Shown piece after piece: positions 5,292 to 11,867 of a stretch of DNA of 21,816 nt. Each line of letters opens with the position of its first letter. Positions within the stretch are counted from its first letter, which is position 1. This stretch comes from a virus. The notes under the pieces are model-generated. The model was given only the letters and a program-made list of their open reading frames with translations, made no database searches and was not told where the DNA came from. The stretch is from positions 1-21,816 of the IMG/VR virus record IMGVR_UViG_3300029258_003087, one strand, 5' to 3'. Position numbers and translations under genes: made by a program.

Positions 5292-7493
5292 ATGCCTACT
5301 GGCGCTTCGAGAATAAACATTACCTGGAAACAGGGACAGCAAAACGTCACAGGCGTTGACACATCCCGCGCCGCAGCCGTTGGTCTCACCGAGCGTGGCC
5401 CTATAGGTACCCGGACGACCGTTTTCAGCGCGGAGGAATACAGGAAGTATTTCGGCGGGTACATCGACAACGATGATTCAGACCTGTCGGTGGCCGTTGA
5501 TTCGTTCTTCGACAACGGCGGTACGGCCCTTGACGTCGTCCGGACTTGCCATTACACCGACATCAGCGATCCCGACAGCTACACGGCCGTCATTGGGACG
5601 TTGGATCTGGAAACCTACACGAGCGGCACTCCGACCTCGGGCTCGGAGACGTCGAGCGGTACCGAGCCGTTCGAACTCGCACCGGCGGACACACTGCTGA
5701 TCGACGTCGATGCGGGGGGCGTTCAGACGATCACTTTCAACGCGACCGCCGGGTATGTCGATTCGAGCGACACTTTCCCAGTGGGGGATCAGGTCGGCCT
5801 GACGTTGAATCTGTCCGTCGACGGCGGCTCGACCTTCACGGTGACGTTTGGCACGGCAACCACCGTTGCGGAGCTCGTGAACGACATCAACGCCGAGGGT
5901 ATCCCTGGGCTGCACGCCTACGAGTCCGGCGGCCAGGTCCGGATTCAGAGCGACAACCCGGGCACCAACTCATCGATCGCAATTATCGCCGGTGGAACGA
6001 ATACCATCACCTGGGGCGCCCCGGTGGCAGGAACCGGCGACGTTGCGAACATCTATGCGGTCACGGCGGCCGAGGCCGAGGCCCACATCGAGGCCACTCT
6101 GACCGGCGCGTCGGTGGACGTTGAGACCGGTGGAGAAATCACCATCACTAGCTCAACGACGGGAACGTCTTCGAGCGTCCAGATGACTGGAACCGCGCAG
6201 ACCAAGTTTGGGTTTGACGGTGCCGTCCATAGCGGCTCTACGGCCGGGACAACCACGACGCTCACGGTCAACGGCAAAACAGAGGGTGAGTATGCAAACA
6301 GCCTCTACGCCGTTGTTGCGGACGCCAGCAGCGGCGATGCGGCTTACTTCGACCTGTCGATCACGCGTGACGGCGAGGTAGAGGAGAGCTGGGCCAACCT
6401 CACGATGGATCCGGCGGACGAACGCTATGTGATCAACATCGTCAACGATGAGCTGATCGGATCCGACTTGATCAATCTCGTGGACGCGGAACTGATGGGC
6501 GGCGCGGGCTACACGGCACTGGAGGCGCGCCCGACAAACGGCACATTCGGGCCGCTCACGGGTGGCGACGACGGTCTGTCGGGGCTTCTCGATTCCGATT
6601 TCGTTGGCTCCAGCGCGGGTTACACGGGGCTCTACGCCCTTGACGACGAAGCGGACATCCGCCTCTTCTCCGTCCCGGGGCACGCCTCGTCGGCAGTCCA
6701 CGCGGGGATCAACGCGTATATTGAGCACAGGGAAAAGGGCATATATGGCGTCCATCCGACGCCGGGCCCCGATCAGGGTGTCGTGAGTGCGGTCACGATG
6801 AAGACGTGGTCTGAAAATTACCTGCACAACACGACCGAGTTCGGGTGTTGTGCCTGGCCACGGATCAAGATTTCCAACCCATCCAGCGCGGTGTTCGGCG
6901 ATGTCGACACGGTGACGATCGGCTCCGAGATGGCGAAGATGGGCCGATTCGCCTACAATGATCGTTACAACCCTGACGGTGTCCTCGTGAGTACCGCCGG
7001 GATCAAGGACGGCCGTGGTGTGGTTGTCAACTGCCTTGGAGTCGAGTACGACGACATGCTGATTCAGTCGAAGGCCGACCTAATCGCAGACGTGAATATC
7101 GAGCCGATCCGCAAGTTCAAAAACACCGCGTACCATTGGGACGGCGGCGACAACCTCACGATCAACGGCGATTGGCCGCGCCAGTGGCATGCGCGGGGGG
7201 CCGTTTACATCGTCAAGTCCATCGAGGCAGATTCTTTGTGGGTCAAGCACTCGAAGAACAATCCTCAGACGCGGTCGCAGTGGGAGCGCCAGGGGAACCG
7301 CTTCTTGGCCACACTCCCCGAGACGGCATTCGACGAGGACCGGCCGACATACTGGGAAGTCTCCGACGCCCTCAACGGCCCGGACATCCGCGCACAGCAG
7401 CGCATTCGGGGCAAGCTGGGCTTGGGCTTCTCGGACGACGCGAAATACGTGGAAATCATCGTCACCCGGACGGTGGCCACGACGACAAGCTAA
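5292..7493 (+). CDS. Contractile tail sheath protein with inserted beta domains
   Basis: 733 residues from ATG 5292 with a near-perfect SD. The N terminus has the sheath start pattern: a short strand, then AAAVGLTERGPIGTRTTVFS, AEEYRKYFGGY and a FFDNGGTALDVVRT strand-helix. The C-terminal half carries the conserved sheath core: HASSAVHAGINAYIEHRE, WPRIKISNPSS, a VYIVKSIEADSLWVKHSKN strand, FLATLPETAFDEDRPTYWEV, and the last KYVEIIVTRT strand that in sheaths links neighbouring subunits. Between them, about residues 118-320 is a Thr/Gly/Ser-rich insertion made of flagellin-IN-like units. Sheaths of P2/Mu type are about 400-500 residues, so the extra length is explained by this insertion. It likely projects from the outer surface of the sheath without hindering contraction. 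The protein polymerises around the tube and contracts on infection. Confidence 0.92.
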   Translation: MPTGASRINITWKQGQQNVTGVDTSRAAAVGLTERGPIGTRTTVFSAEEYRKYFGGYIDNDDSDLSVAVDSFFDNGGTALDVVRTCHYTDISDPDSYTAVIGTLDLETYTSGTPTSGSETSSGTEPFELAPADTLLIDVDAGGVQTITFNATAGYVDSSDTFPVGDQVGLTLNLSVDGGSTFTVTFGTATTVAELVNDINAEGIPGLHAYESGGQVRIQSDNPGTNSSIAIIAGGTNTITWGAPVAGTGDVANIYAVTAAEAEAHIEATLTGASVDVETGGEITITSSTTGTSSSVQMTGTAQTKFGFDGAVHSGSTAGTTTTLTVNGKTEGEYANSLYAVVADASSGDAAYFDLSITRDGEVEESWANLTMDPADERYVINIVNDELIGSDLINLVDAELMGGAGYTALEARPTNGTFGPLTGGDDGLSGLLDSDFVGSSAGYTGLYALDDEADIRLFSVPGHASSAVHAGINAYIEHREKGIYGVHPTPGPDQGVVSAVTMKTWSENYLHNTTEFGCCAWPRIKISNPSSAVFGDVDTVTIGSEMAKMGRFAYNDRYNPDGVLVSTAGIKDGRGVVVNCLGVEYDDMLIQSKADLIADVNIEPIRKFKNTAYHWDGGDNLTINGDWPRQWHARGAVYIVKSIEADSLWVKHSKNNPQTRSQWERQGNRFLATLPETAFDEDRPTYWEVSDALNGPDIRAQQRIRGKLGLGFSDDAKYVEIIVTRTVATTTS
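5643..6251 (+). repeat. IN-like domain insertion in the sheath, with one unit nested inside another
   Basis: Codons about 118-320 of the sheath. The outer unit appears split: its first strands are TLLIDVDAGGVQTITFN (about 133-150), and its helix and closing strands resume at VTAAEAEAHIEATL, ITITSSTTGTSSSVQM and FGFDG (about 257-310). Between them lies a complete second unit (about 166-250: LTLNLSVDGGSTFTVTFG, VAELVNDIN, GGQVRIQS, TITWGAP). The single copy in the gene at 2867 shows the uninterrupted order, which is the basis for the nesting claim. Confidence 0.5.
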
Positions 7494-7505: not shown

Positions 7506-7976
7506 ATGCCGAAGGATCAACCAAAAAATTTCTTCATGCAGCCCAAGTGGGTGCTGTACATCGACGATATCGAGCGTGTTCGATTTTCGCGTGTGACAAT
7601 ACCCGACGAGACTGTCACCGATAACGTGATCCGCCAGTCCGCGCAAACCTTCCCGGATCGCGCGCCGGGCGAGTATCAACCCGTCGACATCGATCTCGAA
7701 GGTCCGGCCTTTTTCGCGGATCCGACGTTCCGAACGCTCTGGAACAGGACGATCGATGTCATCCGTGGCGGCGGCAGCATCGGCGAGGCGCTCTATTTCG
7801 ATTGCGATCTTGTTCAGCTCGATCGCGACAATGAGACCGAGTTGGAGAAGTACCGCTTGCACCGGTGCTATTGCGGCGGCCGGAAGTTTGGCGATTTCGA
7901 CGCCGAGACTGACGGTGCGCGGAAGAAGGGCGCCTTTATTCGCCCGCAGAAAATCGAAGAAATCCCGGTCGCCTAA
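7506..7976 (+). CDS. Tail tube protein
   Basis: 156 residues from ATG 7506, with AAAGGAGAC just upstream at about 7492-7500. Being directly after the sheath and before the chaperone genes, at the standard size for contractile-tail tube subunits (about 140-170), is the main evidence. The sequence shows an N-terminal WVLYIDDIERVRFSRVTIPD that fits a tube beta-strand leading into the inner-barrel loop, YQPVDIDLEGPAFF, and a C-terminal strand region KYRLHRCYCGGRKFGDFD. Many subunits would stack as hexameric rings inside the sheath to form the DNA channel, with length set by the tape measure. I do not see a family-defining motif, so a related minor tail protein cannot be excluded. Confidence 0.6.
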   Translation: MPKDQPKNFFMQPKWVLYIDDIERVRFSRVTIPDETVTDNVIRQSAQTFPDRAPGEYQPVDIDLEGPAFFADPTFRTLWNRTIDVIRGGGSIGEALYFDCDLVQLDRDNETELEKYRLHRCYCGGRKFGDFDAETDGARKKGAFIRPQKIEEIPVA

Positions 7977-8012: not shown

Positions 8013-8837
8013 ATGTCAGAAATTATTAAGTTTCCGTCAAGAATGGAAGTGGAGATGCGCGCCCGCTCGGTTTCCGAGTTGCGCCAAACACTGAGCGGAT
8101 TCCGCGATTCTCTCGTAGGCGCTCAAACGGCCGCGCTCGAAGGTGCCACCGTCAAGCTTGTGTCACCGGGAGACTACCCGGTCGAACGCATCGCAGGCGT
8201 AGACGATAGCGTCAATTGGATCAAGGCGACCACGGAGGACCGTCTTTACGGACTGCTCGCAACGCGGGTCATTTCGTTTGAGAAGGGGCGCCACTACCGG
8301 ATGGAAAACGCGTGTGAGCGCTGTCCCAAAAAGTACATGCACGATGTGGATTTGCGCCGCGTCGAGGACGGTGGCGATATTGTCGTCTGGGAATTCGAAG
8401 ACGACGATCATCGGGATCGGTTCAAAAAGGATATTCCATTCGAGGGGATGCTGGGGGACAAGCTCGTCAAGTGGCGCATGGCCTACGGCGAAGACGAGCA
8501 GCTCATCGAGCGTGTTTCGGATGGGAATCCCAATGCGAAGACTGACGAGTTGAGCCTCCGGACGCGCATCGTCGAAGTTGAAGGGATAAATAGTAACGAC
8601 ATCAGCAAGTGGCTCGAAAGCCTTGGCGATGAGCGACTTGAGCTTCAGGACATGATGTCCGAGGCAACCCACGGTGTTGACCTCGTGGTCGACACGAAAT
8701 GTGTGTGGTGTAACTCTTCGCAGGAAGCAACGATCCCTTTCGATTTGGAATTCTGGATTCCGGTAGTCGCGCGCGAGCGGGATCGACGTCGAGATCGCAG
8801 GGACAAAGCCCTGATGAGAGCGGCGCAGCGGAGATAA
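8013..8837 (+). CDS. Tail assembly chaperone, T4 gp51/gp26-like with two Cys pairs (frame G)
   Basis: 274 residues from ATG 8013. A TTG at 8004 is also in frame but poorly spaced from the A/G-rich GAAAGG near 7996-8001. The layout (about residues 75-105: LYGLLATRVISF... then CERC; about 150-160: a WRMAYGEDEQLIERV segment; then RTRIVEVEGI; C-terminal DLVVDTKCVWC before IPFDLEFWIP) matches the phage family described as T4 gp26/gp51-like or tail assembly chaperone, encoded between tube and tape measure. Cys101/104 and Cys230/233 look like a split zinc-binding site. The product likely coats the tape measure while the tail assembles and is absent from the virion. The last ~30 residues are Arg/Asp-rich. 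A -1 slippery heptamer at codons 242-243 connects to the next frame. Confidence 0.65.
   Translation: MSEIIKFPSRMEVEMRARSVSELRQTLSGFRDSLVGAQTAALEGATVKLVSPGDYPVERIAGVDDSVNWIKATTEDRLYGLLATRVISFEKGRHYRMENACERCPKKYMHDVDLRRVEDGGDIVVWEFEDDDHRDRFKKDIPFEGMLGDKLVKWRMAYGEDEQLIERVSDGNPNAKTDELSLRTRIVEVEGINSNDISKWLESLGDERLELQDMMSEATHGVDLVVDTKCVWCNSSQEATIPFDLEFWIPVVARERDRRRDRRDKALMRAAQRR
8735..8761 (+). promoter_or_regulatory. Programmed -1 ribosomal frameshift site (CCCTTTC) plus downstream hairpin
   Basis: The heptamer C CCT TTC at 8735-8741 is in the correct phase of the upstream frame (Pro242-Phe243) and fits X XXY YYZ, so both tRNAs can re-pair on CCC and TTT. Five bases later GGAAT (8747-8751) and ATTCC (8757-8761) form a perfect five-pair stem with a five-base loop, extendable by wobble pairs. 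The last stop in the -1 frame is TAA 8711-8713, so a slip here enters an open frame that runs to 9157. This is the classic G/GT chaperone arrangement. Confidence 0.65.
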
Positions 8838-9157
8838 TAAATTACGGCGTCAGCCCGGTCGTCTCCCCAGAATTGCTGTACATCTTGCGCTCGTTCGAGG
8901 TGCGCCCGTGTAGTGCCACACTCGATGAATGGTACAACCTGAAGACGGTTGCGAGCGTCGAACCGCTCGTCGATCCGTTTGACGAGCAGAGTCTTTTTGA
9001 CCTCCAGTTTGACCTTTGCGTAAGCGCTCCGATGGCGATATCAATGAACATGAGGTGGGAGGACGCTGGTCAGCTACCCATGAAAGATGCTATTCGTATA
9101 CAAGAGACTTTGTACAAGAGAAACGATGCATTAGTTAGAGCGTTGAAGGACAAATAA
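8741..9157 (+). CDS. Tail assembly chaperone second frame (T), probably made only as a -1 frameshift G-T fusion
   Basis: The frame is open from 8714 to TAA 9155-9157 and overlaps the end of the upstream chaperone by more than 100 bases. The first conventional start codon is TTG 8873, with no SD before it; ATG or GTG starts are absent until deep in the frame. If reached by slippage at 8735-8741 the fusion would be about 381 residues: 243 from the first frame plus 138 here. The unique part begins with a flexible Ser/Gly/Arg stretch and then a folded-looking segment, ELLYILRSFEVRPCSATLDEW, continuing to a Lys-rich helical end. Position directly before the tape measure gene fits lambda GT-type logic, where the T part recruits tube subunits. 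If translated alone from 8873 it would be 94 residues. No other function is recognised. Confidence 0.65.
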   Translation, partial: RFGILDSGSRARAGSTSRSQGQSPDESGAAEIINYGVSPVVSPELLYILRSFEVRPCSATLDEWYNLKTVASVEPLVDPFDEQSLFDLQFDLCVSAPMAISMNMRWEDAGQLPMKDAIRIQETLYKRNDALVRALKDK

Positions 9158-9182: not shown

Positions 9183-11867
9183 ATGGCTGGCAAAAGCCTG
9201 AAGACTATCTTTGACGTTTTGGCCAGGGATGGCGCCACCCCAGTCCTGAATAAAGTCACAAATTCGTTCGGAAGTATGCGTAAGGCCGCAAAGAGCGCTG
9301 ATCAGGCGTTGGGCGGCATGAATGCTGGCGCGGCGGCCATGCAAAAGCGCATGACCACCATCATGGCCGGTGGTATCATCGGCGCGGGATTCCTGAAGGC
9401 CGGTGCGGGATTACAGAACTTCGTCAAGGGGGCGGTCGCTCAGGCCGGCGACCTCGAATACGAGCTTGCTACCCTCAAGGGCATCTCGGGGGCTACGGCC
9501 GACGAAATGGATCGCCTTGCGGCGGCGGCGTCCAAGGCTGGCGTGGAAACCCAATTCACGCCGACACAGGCGGTGGAGGGACTCGCGGCCCTTGCACAAC
9601 AGGGCTTCACGACGGCCCAGCAGCTCGACACACTCATGCCGTCCCTATTCCTTGCAGGCGCGTCCGGTGGAAAGATCCCCCTTGAGGAGGGGGCGAAACT
9701 CACGACTCAGACACTCAAGGCGTTTGGGCTCCAGGCGGAGGACGCCGGTATCCTTGTCGATCAGTTGGTCAAGACGACTACGCAGTCCGGACTCGCCATT
9801 GATGAGCTTACCGAGTCATTACAGAATGCATCGGCGGGTGCGATTTCAATGGGGCTTGGCATCGAGGATTCCATGGCGGCGCTGGGTTTGATCAAGAATA
9901 TCATCCCGTCGGCGGCGATGGCGGGGTCCGCCTTCCAGATCATGACCGGCCGATTGAGCGCGACGCGCACGCAGAAGAAAATCAAGGAGGCCATGGGGAT
10001 CGACGTTGTCGACGCGGCGACCGGCAAGTACATGGCTTTTGACAAGCTCCTCGTGAAGATGAGCGACAAGTTGGGCAAGATGGAGGAGGGCGCGCGCGGG
10101 GCGTTGGTCGGGGAGGCGTTCGGTGAGCGTGCCAAAAAGGGTATTCTTTCTATCTTCCAGCAGCTTAGTACGGGCATTACGACAACCGAGGGGCAGGTCC
10201 TGAAGGGCGCGGAGGCATTCGCCTATTACAAGGACCAACTCGATCCGGATGTGGTGCGAGGTTTCGCACAGTCCATGAACGACTTGAAGCTAGACACTCT
10301 CAGGGGGCAGATGGAGCTTCTTACCGGCTCCGTCCAAACGTTCATGATGGAGATGGGCAAGGGCTCGGCGGCGTTCTCGAAGAAGATCGTCAAAGCATTC
10401 CTTGGCGGCTTCAATACGATGCTGTCGATGTTCCAGGAGCTCCCGGATGGATTGAAAACCGGGATCGCCGCCTTCGTGATGTTGGCAGGGACGATCACGA
10501 AGCTGATCGGCGTCATATTGATTGCGCGCGCGGGGTTGGGTCTGTTCGGGTTCAGTCTCAGCGGTGTCTTGATGGGGATCGGTAAAATGCTGCTACTCGC
10601 GGCGCCGCTGACGTTGTTCTTTGGTGGCATCGCCCTCGGGGCCTACGGTATCTATCGGGCCGTCGCGAGGAACTTCGGCAACGCGGAGAAGTCGACGGCA
10701 TCCTTCACCGACAAAGTCAAGATGGCGTTCAAGGGCATCGTGGACATCGTCAAGACGGGCGGCTTGTCAGAGGCGACAGAGAAGGAATTCCTGAAGATGG
10801 GCAAGTCGCCGATGCTGTCGGCGTTCTTCAAGCGCTTCATCTCAATGTGGCGCAACGCGAAGGCGTTCTTCTCCGGTGTGGTCCAGGGGTTTGACGAGGG
10901 GCTAGTGCGTCTTGAAGGGCCGTGGAATCGTTTCACAGACGTCATCACCAGGGTATTCAATATTTGGACCGGCGGAACACAACGAGGCATCAGCGATACA
11001 GGTATATGGACAGAGAAGGGCCGGATATTCGGAGACACCTTGGTCGGGCTTAGCGAGATGGTCCTTGATCTCATGACGAAGTTTGTAGAGCTCGGGGAAA
11101 AGGGGGCGCAATCGCTTGAAGGTATTACCGTGGACGATGTCGTCGATGGGTTCGCGAAACTGATAGGAGTTATCAAGGTCGTTGGAAGGGCGTTCCATGG
11201 GGTTTTTTGGCTCTTCGACAAAATAGGCACACACATCGGCGAGATGGTTGGTGGTATCGTTACCCTGTTCGATGGTTTGGGGTCCGTCATCTCTGGCTTC
11301 TGGAACAACAACGAGCAGCTTTCGGCCGCCGGTATGGCGAAAATCAAAGGCGTCCTTACGGGAGAATTCACTAGCGCTGGGGCATCGCTTAGGGAAAACA
11401 TGGCGCGGCAGAGGGAGCAGGCGGGCGGACTAGCAGAAACGCGGGAACTTGCGCTTGCGCGCATGAGGTTTGCTGTCGGCGCGCGGGAGCGAGACACGAC
11501 GCCGTTGGATGGACTCGACAGAGGAGAACGCCGGGCGGCAATGTCTGGCGATCAGACTGTGATGAGCCAGATGAATAGCAACATCGCCGAAATGACCGCC
11601 CGGCTCCGCGCGCGCCAGGCTGAGATCGTGGAGTACAAGAAGAGCGAGGACTATCAAGAGGGTGTGGTGGCACCGCAAACACGGCAAGCACTTGCGGAAG
11701 AGATGAAGGTCATCAAGCAGGCGCTGACACAGACGCCCAAGGTCATCATGGTCAACGTCGACGGGCGCCGGTTGTTTGAGGTCCAGATGGAGAACGCTGC
11801 GGAAGATCGCGAGGACAATTTCGATGATCCGAACATGTCGCCAGTGACCCAGCCAGGAGCAATATAA
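9183..11867 (+). CDS. Tail tape measure protein
   Basis: 894 residues from ATG 9183 with GGGAG at 9175-9179. Residues about 85-300 match the phage tail tape measure core (TP901/PhageMin_Tail type): LEYELATLKGISGATADEMD, then a long Ala-rich TPTQAVEGLAALAQQGF, LMPSLFLAGASGG, TTQTLKAFGLQAEDA, FQIMTGRLSA. About 424-491 is a strongly hydrophobic stretch in two to three helices (GIAAFVMLAGTITKLIGVI and onward), which may enter the host inner membrane during DNA delivery. The C-terminal third is helical and charged. By the lambda rule of roughly 1.5 angstrom per residue the tail would be about 130 nm, a reasonable contractile length. No lysozyme or peptidase domain is seen. The stop overlaps the next ATG (TAATG). 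Confidence 0.93.
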   Translation: MAGKSLKTIFDVLARDGATPVLNKVTNSFGSMRKAAKSADQALGGMNAGAAAMQKRMTTIMAGGIIGAGFLKAGAGLQNFVKGAVAQAGDLEYELATLKGISGATADEMDRLAAAASKAGVETQFTPTQAVEGLAALAQQGFTTAQQLDTLMPSLFLAGASGGKIPLEEGAKLTTQTLKAFGLQAEDAGILVDQLVKTTTQSGLAIDELTESLQNASAGAISMGLGIEDSMAALGLIKNIIPSAAMAGSAFQIMTGRLSATRTQKKIKEAMGIDVVDAATGKYMAFDKLLVKMSDKLGKMEEGARGALVGEAFGERAKKGILSIFQQLSTGITTTEGQVLKGAEAFAYYKDQLDPDVVRGFAQSMNDLKLDTLRGQMELLTGSVQTFMMEMGKGSAAFSKKIVKAFLGGFNTMLSMFQELPDGLKTGIAAFVMLAGTITKLIGVILIARAGLGLFGFSLSGVLMGIGKMLLLAAPLTLFFGGIALGAYGIYRAVARNFGNAEKSTASFTDKVKMAFKGIVDIVKTGGLSEATEKEFLKMGKSPMLSAFFKRFISMWRNAKAFFSGVVQGFDEGLVRLEGPWNRFTDVITRVFNIWTGGTQRGISDTGIWTEKGRIFGDTLVGLSEMVLDLMTKFVELGEKGAQSLEGITVDDVVDGFAKLIGVIKVVGRAFHGVFWLFDKIGTHIGEMVGGIVTLFDGLGSVISGFWNNNEQLSAAGMAKIKGVLTGEFTSAGASLRENMARQREQAGGLAETRELALARMRFAVGARERDTTPLDGLDRGERRAAMSGDQTVMSQMNSNIAEMTARLRARQAEIVEYKKSEDYQEGVVAPQTRQALAEEMKVIKQALTQTPKVIMVNVDGRRLFEVQMENAAEDREDNFDDPNMSPVTQPGAI

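Follow-up and report, generated by a model that had tools for sequence, protein, structure and literature searches.

A predicted −1 frameshift site in a gp26-type tail assembly chaperone gene of an uncultured contractile-tailed virus

Two overlapping reading frames, here called F1 and F2, lie directly ahead of the tape measure gene in a 21.8-kb DNA fragment from an uncultured virus (the window, which is the whole stretch analysed). We conclude that they very probably encode the short and long forms of a gp26-type tail assembly chaperone (TAC), arranged as in G/GT-type loci, and that the long form would arise by −1 programmed frameshifting at the heptamer C CCT TTC. The first-pass annotation of this DNA had already read the frames as two chaperone frames joined by slippage, and the conservation of the heptamer, the gene slot and the homology of F1 support that reading. 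Frameshifted tail chaperones are well established, lambda gpG/gpGT among them (review PMC5009743, citing Levin 1993, Xu 2004/2013). To these the window adds a gp26-type chaperone whose predicted, strongly supported frameshift site is of the canonical −1 kind. The case is of interest because some T4-like phages, the best-known relatives, reportedly do without frameshifting. It also illustrates how the second half of a chaperone is easily overlooked by annotation, since F2 has no start codon of its own.

The window carries a contractile-tail operon with genes for sheath, tube, F1, F2 and tape measure (Table 1). F1 reads from an ATG to the TAA at 8837; its protein contains a pair of CxxC motifs and has a C-terminal tail rich in Arg and Asp. 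In the −1 frame, the stretch open from 8714 is bounded by a TAA at 8711-8713 and by the TAA at 9157. The heptamer is in phase with F1 and lies at the point where a −1 slip enters F2. As in G/GT-type loci, the overlapping frames thus occupy the interval between the tube gene and the tape measure gene. The coordinates, phase and frame relation given in the first-pass annotation are correct, and its estimate of a fusion of about 381 residues turns out to be exact when the sequence is translated across the slip. The predicted fusion consists of F1 residues 1-243, ending in ATIPF, and continues with RFGILDSG. The sheath protein matches phrog_15814, a family of unknown function, with 3.6e-94 and the known sheath family phrog_23 with 2.7e-12; phrog_15814 is probably a large sheath type. 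A tblastn search with this protein against 50,697 phage records gave no match.

Table 1. Positions of the features discussed; second ORFs of distant myoviruses are given by contig.
Feature	Position	Strand	Details
Sheath protein gene	5292-7493		733 aa
Tail tube protein	7506-7976	+	phrog_4542 tail tube, 9.8e-06
F1, predicted short tail assembly chaperone (TAC-N), T4 gp26/PF12322-type	8013-8837	+	ORF, 274 aa
F2, −1 frame, putative TAC-C part	8714-9157	+	productive from 8741; 138 aa after the slip
Predicted −1 frameshift fusion TAC-NC	8013-9157	+	translation across the slip, 381 aa; expression presumed
SD-like AGGA, possible stimulator	8722-8725	+	9 nt upstream of the heptamer
Slippery heptamer C CCT TTC (Pro-Phe)	8735-8741	+	slip to CCC TTT; sole in-phase X XXY YYZ in F1
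Candidate stimulatory hairpin	8756-8784	+	GAUUCC(G)GU 8756-8764 with GCGGGAUC 8777-8784, spacer 14 nt
Tape measure protein, presumed chaperone client	9183-11867	+	Pfam PhageMin_Tail 1.9e-26; PHROG tape measure 1.6e-34
+1-frame second ORFs	L004:6542-6844, L025:3177-3467, L026:3135-3440, L027:3135-3503, L029:3117-3425, L031:3060-3383

The searches recovered three independent lineages in all, which we compared: the window, the near-identical contigs L002 and L003 (counted as one), and L009, a contig from a bacterial MAG. L002 and L003 were retrieved with the sheath protein as query and L009 with F1; when viral contigs were scanned with F1 or F2 as the sole protein query, no close relatives emerged. 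A DNA pattern for the peptide PFDLEFW recovered L002/L003 alone plus unrelated matches, for example in a radical-SAM-like family, and the single match to an F2 DNA pattern, L035, was unrelated. Among 132 genomes of the phylum of the L009 host, the only match was that of L009 itself, and a plasmid collection contained no relatives. F1 of the window is 62-66% identical to its counterparts in L002/L003 and L009, and F2 is 54-55% identical at the amino acid level. F2 lies in the −1 frame in all three lineages.

On its + strand the window has a single CCCTTTC. The first-pass annotation had described it as the only in-phase X XXY YYZ motif in the overlap, and this holds for the whole of F1. The overlap considered here spans about 41 codons, in which 0.09 in-phase heptamers are expected by chance from codon shuffles of F1 and 0.21 from the rate in the window's main genes taken together. 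With such expectations the mere presence of a single heptamer is weak evidence, and the argument must therefore rest on conservation. In all three lineages CCCTTTC stands at the same codon near the 3′ end of the first frame, as in G/GT-type loci, and is the sole in-phase heptamer of the entire F1. The four codons ATC CCT TTC GAT are invariant in all three; no other run of invariant codons in F1 is as long, and the next is CGG GAT. For comparison, the codon is identical in all three lineages at 15% of 130 conserved residues (Met and Trp excluded), and at 14% of the conserved residues upstream of the overlap. By permutation, an invariant run of this kind is expected anywhere in F1 with P 0.009, and exactly at the heptamer with P 0.00037. 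Relatives with a broken heptamer and an intact second frame had been proposed as evidence against slippage; both other lineages keep the heptamer, its phase and F2.

F2 reads as a Ser/Gly/Arg-rich linker followed, from about 8864, by a conserved C-terminal domain. Beyond the F1 stop, differences fall mostly at third codon positions (for example 28, 24 and 57 at positions 1, 2 and 3 between the window and L009 in the F2-only part), the pattern that purifying selection on a protein would leave. From the slip site to the F1 stop, where F2 reads as the linker, differences track the F1 frame rather than F2. Over this interval none of the lineages has a stop codon in the −1 frame; given the F1 proteins, the chance of this is 0.16, 0.13 and 0.06 for the lineages taken singly.

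Part of the DNA conservation at the heptamer arises because F1 conserves the protein motif IPFD there. It is nevertheless highly improbable that this motif alone maintains the heptamer and that F2 is decayed or unexpressed. Such an account could draw on the occurrence of I-P-x-D in a distant PF12322-type protein as well, and on the chance expectation of 0.1-0.2 heptamers per overlap, but it would leave unexplained why synonymous sites are invariant precisely at ATC CCT TTC GAT, and the conservation of F2 is patterned like that of an ordinary coding gene. We give equally little credence to a joining of the frames by transcriptional slippage or by a shift elsewhere in the overlap. Some genes of phages and insertion sequences do rely on slippage during transcription, but the overlap contains no long homopolymer, and no lineage has a second in-phase heptamer at which ribosomes might shift instead.

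An independently started F2 deserves closer attention. It would be a separate gene with a weak or non-standard start (TTG 8873, ATA 8834/8837 or an NTG at 8753), expressed by translational coupling, and we regard it as unlikely. The −1 frame has no conventional start codon before TTG 8873. The first-pass annotation had stated that the second frame has no ATG or GTG, which is true up to this TTG; further downstream, inside the conserved domain, there are a GTG at 8900 and ATGs at 9032, 9044 and 9050. The TTG is retained as TTG in L009 but reads TTA in L002/L003, and in L002 ATG, GTG and TTG are all absent from just past the slip site to +105 beyond the F1 stop, which is already inside the conserved domain. 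A separately started F2 is unlikely on these two grounds, and in the choice between frameshifting and a start at 8873 the lack of conservation of the TTG favours the former. No ATG or GTG start upstream of the conserved domain is common to the three lineages. The ATA codons are preceded immediately by GGAG and adjoin the F1 stop, an arrangement that would suit coupling. An NTG is present at 8753 in all three lineages, but the Phe-Trp codons of F1 dictate it, and no SD sequence precedes it. An independent start would also leave the invariant heptamer unexplained. In L009 the −1 frame contains an ATG at 6687, which lies 36 nt ahead of the heptamer and inside the CxxC region of F1; the other lineages lack it, and it is probably incidental.

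Frameshift sites may be assisted by neighbouring elements, and several candidates were considered. The first-pass annotation had made a GGAAT/ATTCC hairpin (8747-8761, + strand) part of the signal. This hairpin can form in the window but is broken in both other lineages, where two of its five pairs are lost in at least one relative, and we rejected it as a conserved stimulator. A stem further downstream (8756-8764 with 8777-8784) retains all 8 pairs in the three lineages, including one change from G-U to G-C, and the invariant codons CGG GAT fall on its 3′ arm. Synonymous randomisation yields a common helix of at least 6 bp in about 3% of trials, and none of 109 other F1 segments has one. With modest support, the comparison suggests that this stem is the better candidate for a stimulator. 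Its folding energy is no better than that of shuffled sequences (z +0.4 to −1.3) and its 14-nt spacer is longer than usual, so it is treated as a candidate only. A 7-bp helix that begins right at the heptamer was set aside as consisting mostly of G-U pairs and having no spacer. An SD-like AGGA or GGAG is found 9-10 nt upstream of the heptamer in all three lineages; it was dropped as evidence, since the protein sequence alone explains its presence (P 0.41).

The family assignment of F1 runs through intermediates. Against Pfam PF12322 (T4_baseplate), F1 of the window scores 14.9 bits, below the gathering cutoff of 24.5, and it is therefore a distant relative and not a Pfam member. The protein of L004 (the 484-kb phage LR756508), a distant homologue that aligns to F1, matches T4_baseplate with 2e-15 and 57.5 bits. 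We also built an HMM from 8 PF12322-type phage proteins, leaving out the window group; with this model F1 of the window scores 54.9 bits, T4 gp26 17 and T4 gp51 10. By homology through these intermediates, F1 is a distant T4 gp26-type (PF12322) protein. Genes of the PF12322 type also lie between tube and tape measure, the slot of the tail assembly chaperone, in Microcystis phage Mel-JY01, immuto, Listeria phage LIS04 and Bacillus phage SP-15, although a long ORF without annotation occupies the tape measure position in Mel-JY01. The conserved half of F2 matches the end of T4 gp51 and the second ORFs of PF12322 phages weakly (hhalign probability 60% and pairwise P 8.8e-5 over 51 columns). F2 weakly resembles the C-terminal chaperone domain of PF12322-type phages. 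AlphaFold models of F1 and F2 had low confidence (mean pLDDT 45).

In a slippery heptamer of this type both tRNAs can fully re-pair after a −1 slip, from CCU to CCC and from UUC to UUU. We propose that most ribosomes would complete F1 at 8837 and release the short form (TAC-N). A presumed minority, holding tRNA-Pro at CCU and tRNA-Phe at UUC, would slip back by one base at the heptamer, the pairing moving to CCC and UUU, and would then translate F2 to its stop at 9157. The resulting 381-residue fusion would lack the Arg/Asp-rich end of F1 and carry the linker and the C domain instead. Lambda gpG/gpGT suggest, by analogy, that the N part shared with the short form may bind and coat the tape measure protein and that the C part may bind and recruit tail tube subunits.

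The locus resembles that of lambda in that the pair is situated just upstream of the tape measure gene and would give a short and a long form (PMC5009743). It differs in that F1 is of the gp26/PF12322 type and no demonstrated homologue of gpG, and in the slip sequence CCCTTTC, which is followed by a 31-codon F1 tail. None of the papers searched names CCCTTTC as a frameshift heptamer. In T4, gp26 and gp51, which we take to be the T4 TACs, are encoded by two separate genes on opposite strands. F1 is gp26-type by HMM, and F2 bears a weak resemblance to the C-terminal part of gp51 and its relatives, but in the window both forms are predicted to come from one locus by a −1 slip. T4-like TACs were identified by Vladimirov et al. 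2022, as cited in PMC10885494 and PMC12846349, and PMC10885494 describes some T4-like phages as having a short gene and a fused long gene in place of frameshifting.

Sites of −1 frameshifting have been described in other myoviruses, at the TAC locus of Vandenendeviridae/Andersonviridae (Pakpunavirus Adele; PMC12846349). The Adele locus is likewise that of a myovirus, and a conserved −1 frame stays open throughout its downstream part; its proposed slip motif, however, is GTTTTT (PMC12846349), and the likeness to F1/F2 noted here is one of layout. The TAC of Escherichia phage 9g shares with F1/F2 a frameshift at a C-run/T-run (5′-CCCUUUUUUU in 9g), although the shift in this siphovirus is reported as −2 (PMC4276943).

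Six distant myoviruses have, after the PF12322-type gene, an ORF that overlaps the 3′ end of this gene in the +1 (= −2) frame (Table 1). These second ORFs are often unannotated or annotated late, and sometimes have no start in the overlap. L025, L029 and L031 have a T6 or T7 run at Phe-Phe codons, and a −2 or +1 frameshift is possible in these three. Overlaps of the +1/−2 kind occur in LIS04, SP-15 and Mel-JY01. A tentative scenario, somewhat speculative at this stage, is that recoding may be the ancestral route to the long form of gp26-type chaperones in contractile phages, with −1 shifts at CCCTTTC in the window group, −2 or +1 shifts in many distant phages that have a +1-frame second ORF, frequently with no start, and a later replacement by two separate genes in T4. 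Agrobacterium phage Atu_ph07 (L030:3268-3513) and LR756511 (L028:3160-3432) carry their second ORF in the −1 frame. In L030, T TTT TTC stands shortly before the F1 stop; coupling is equally possible in both phages, because each has an ATG near or overlapping the stop.
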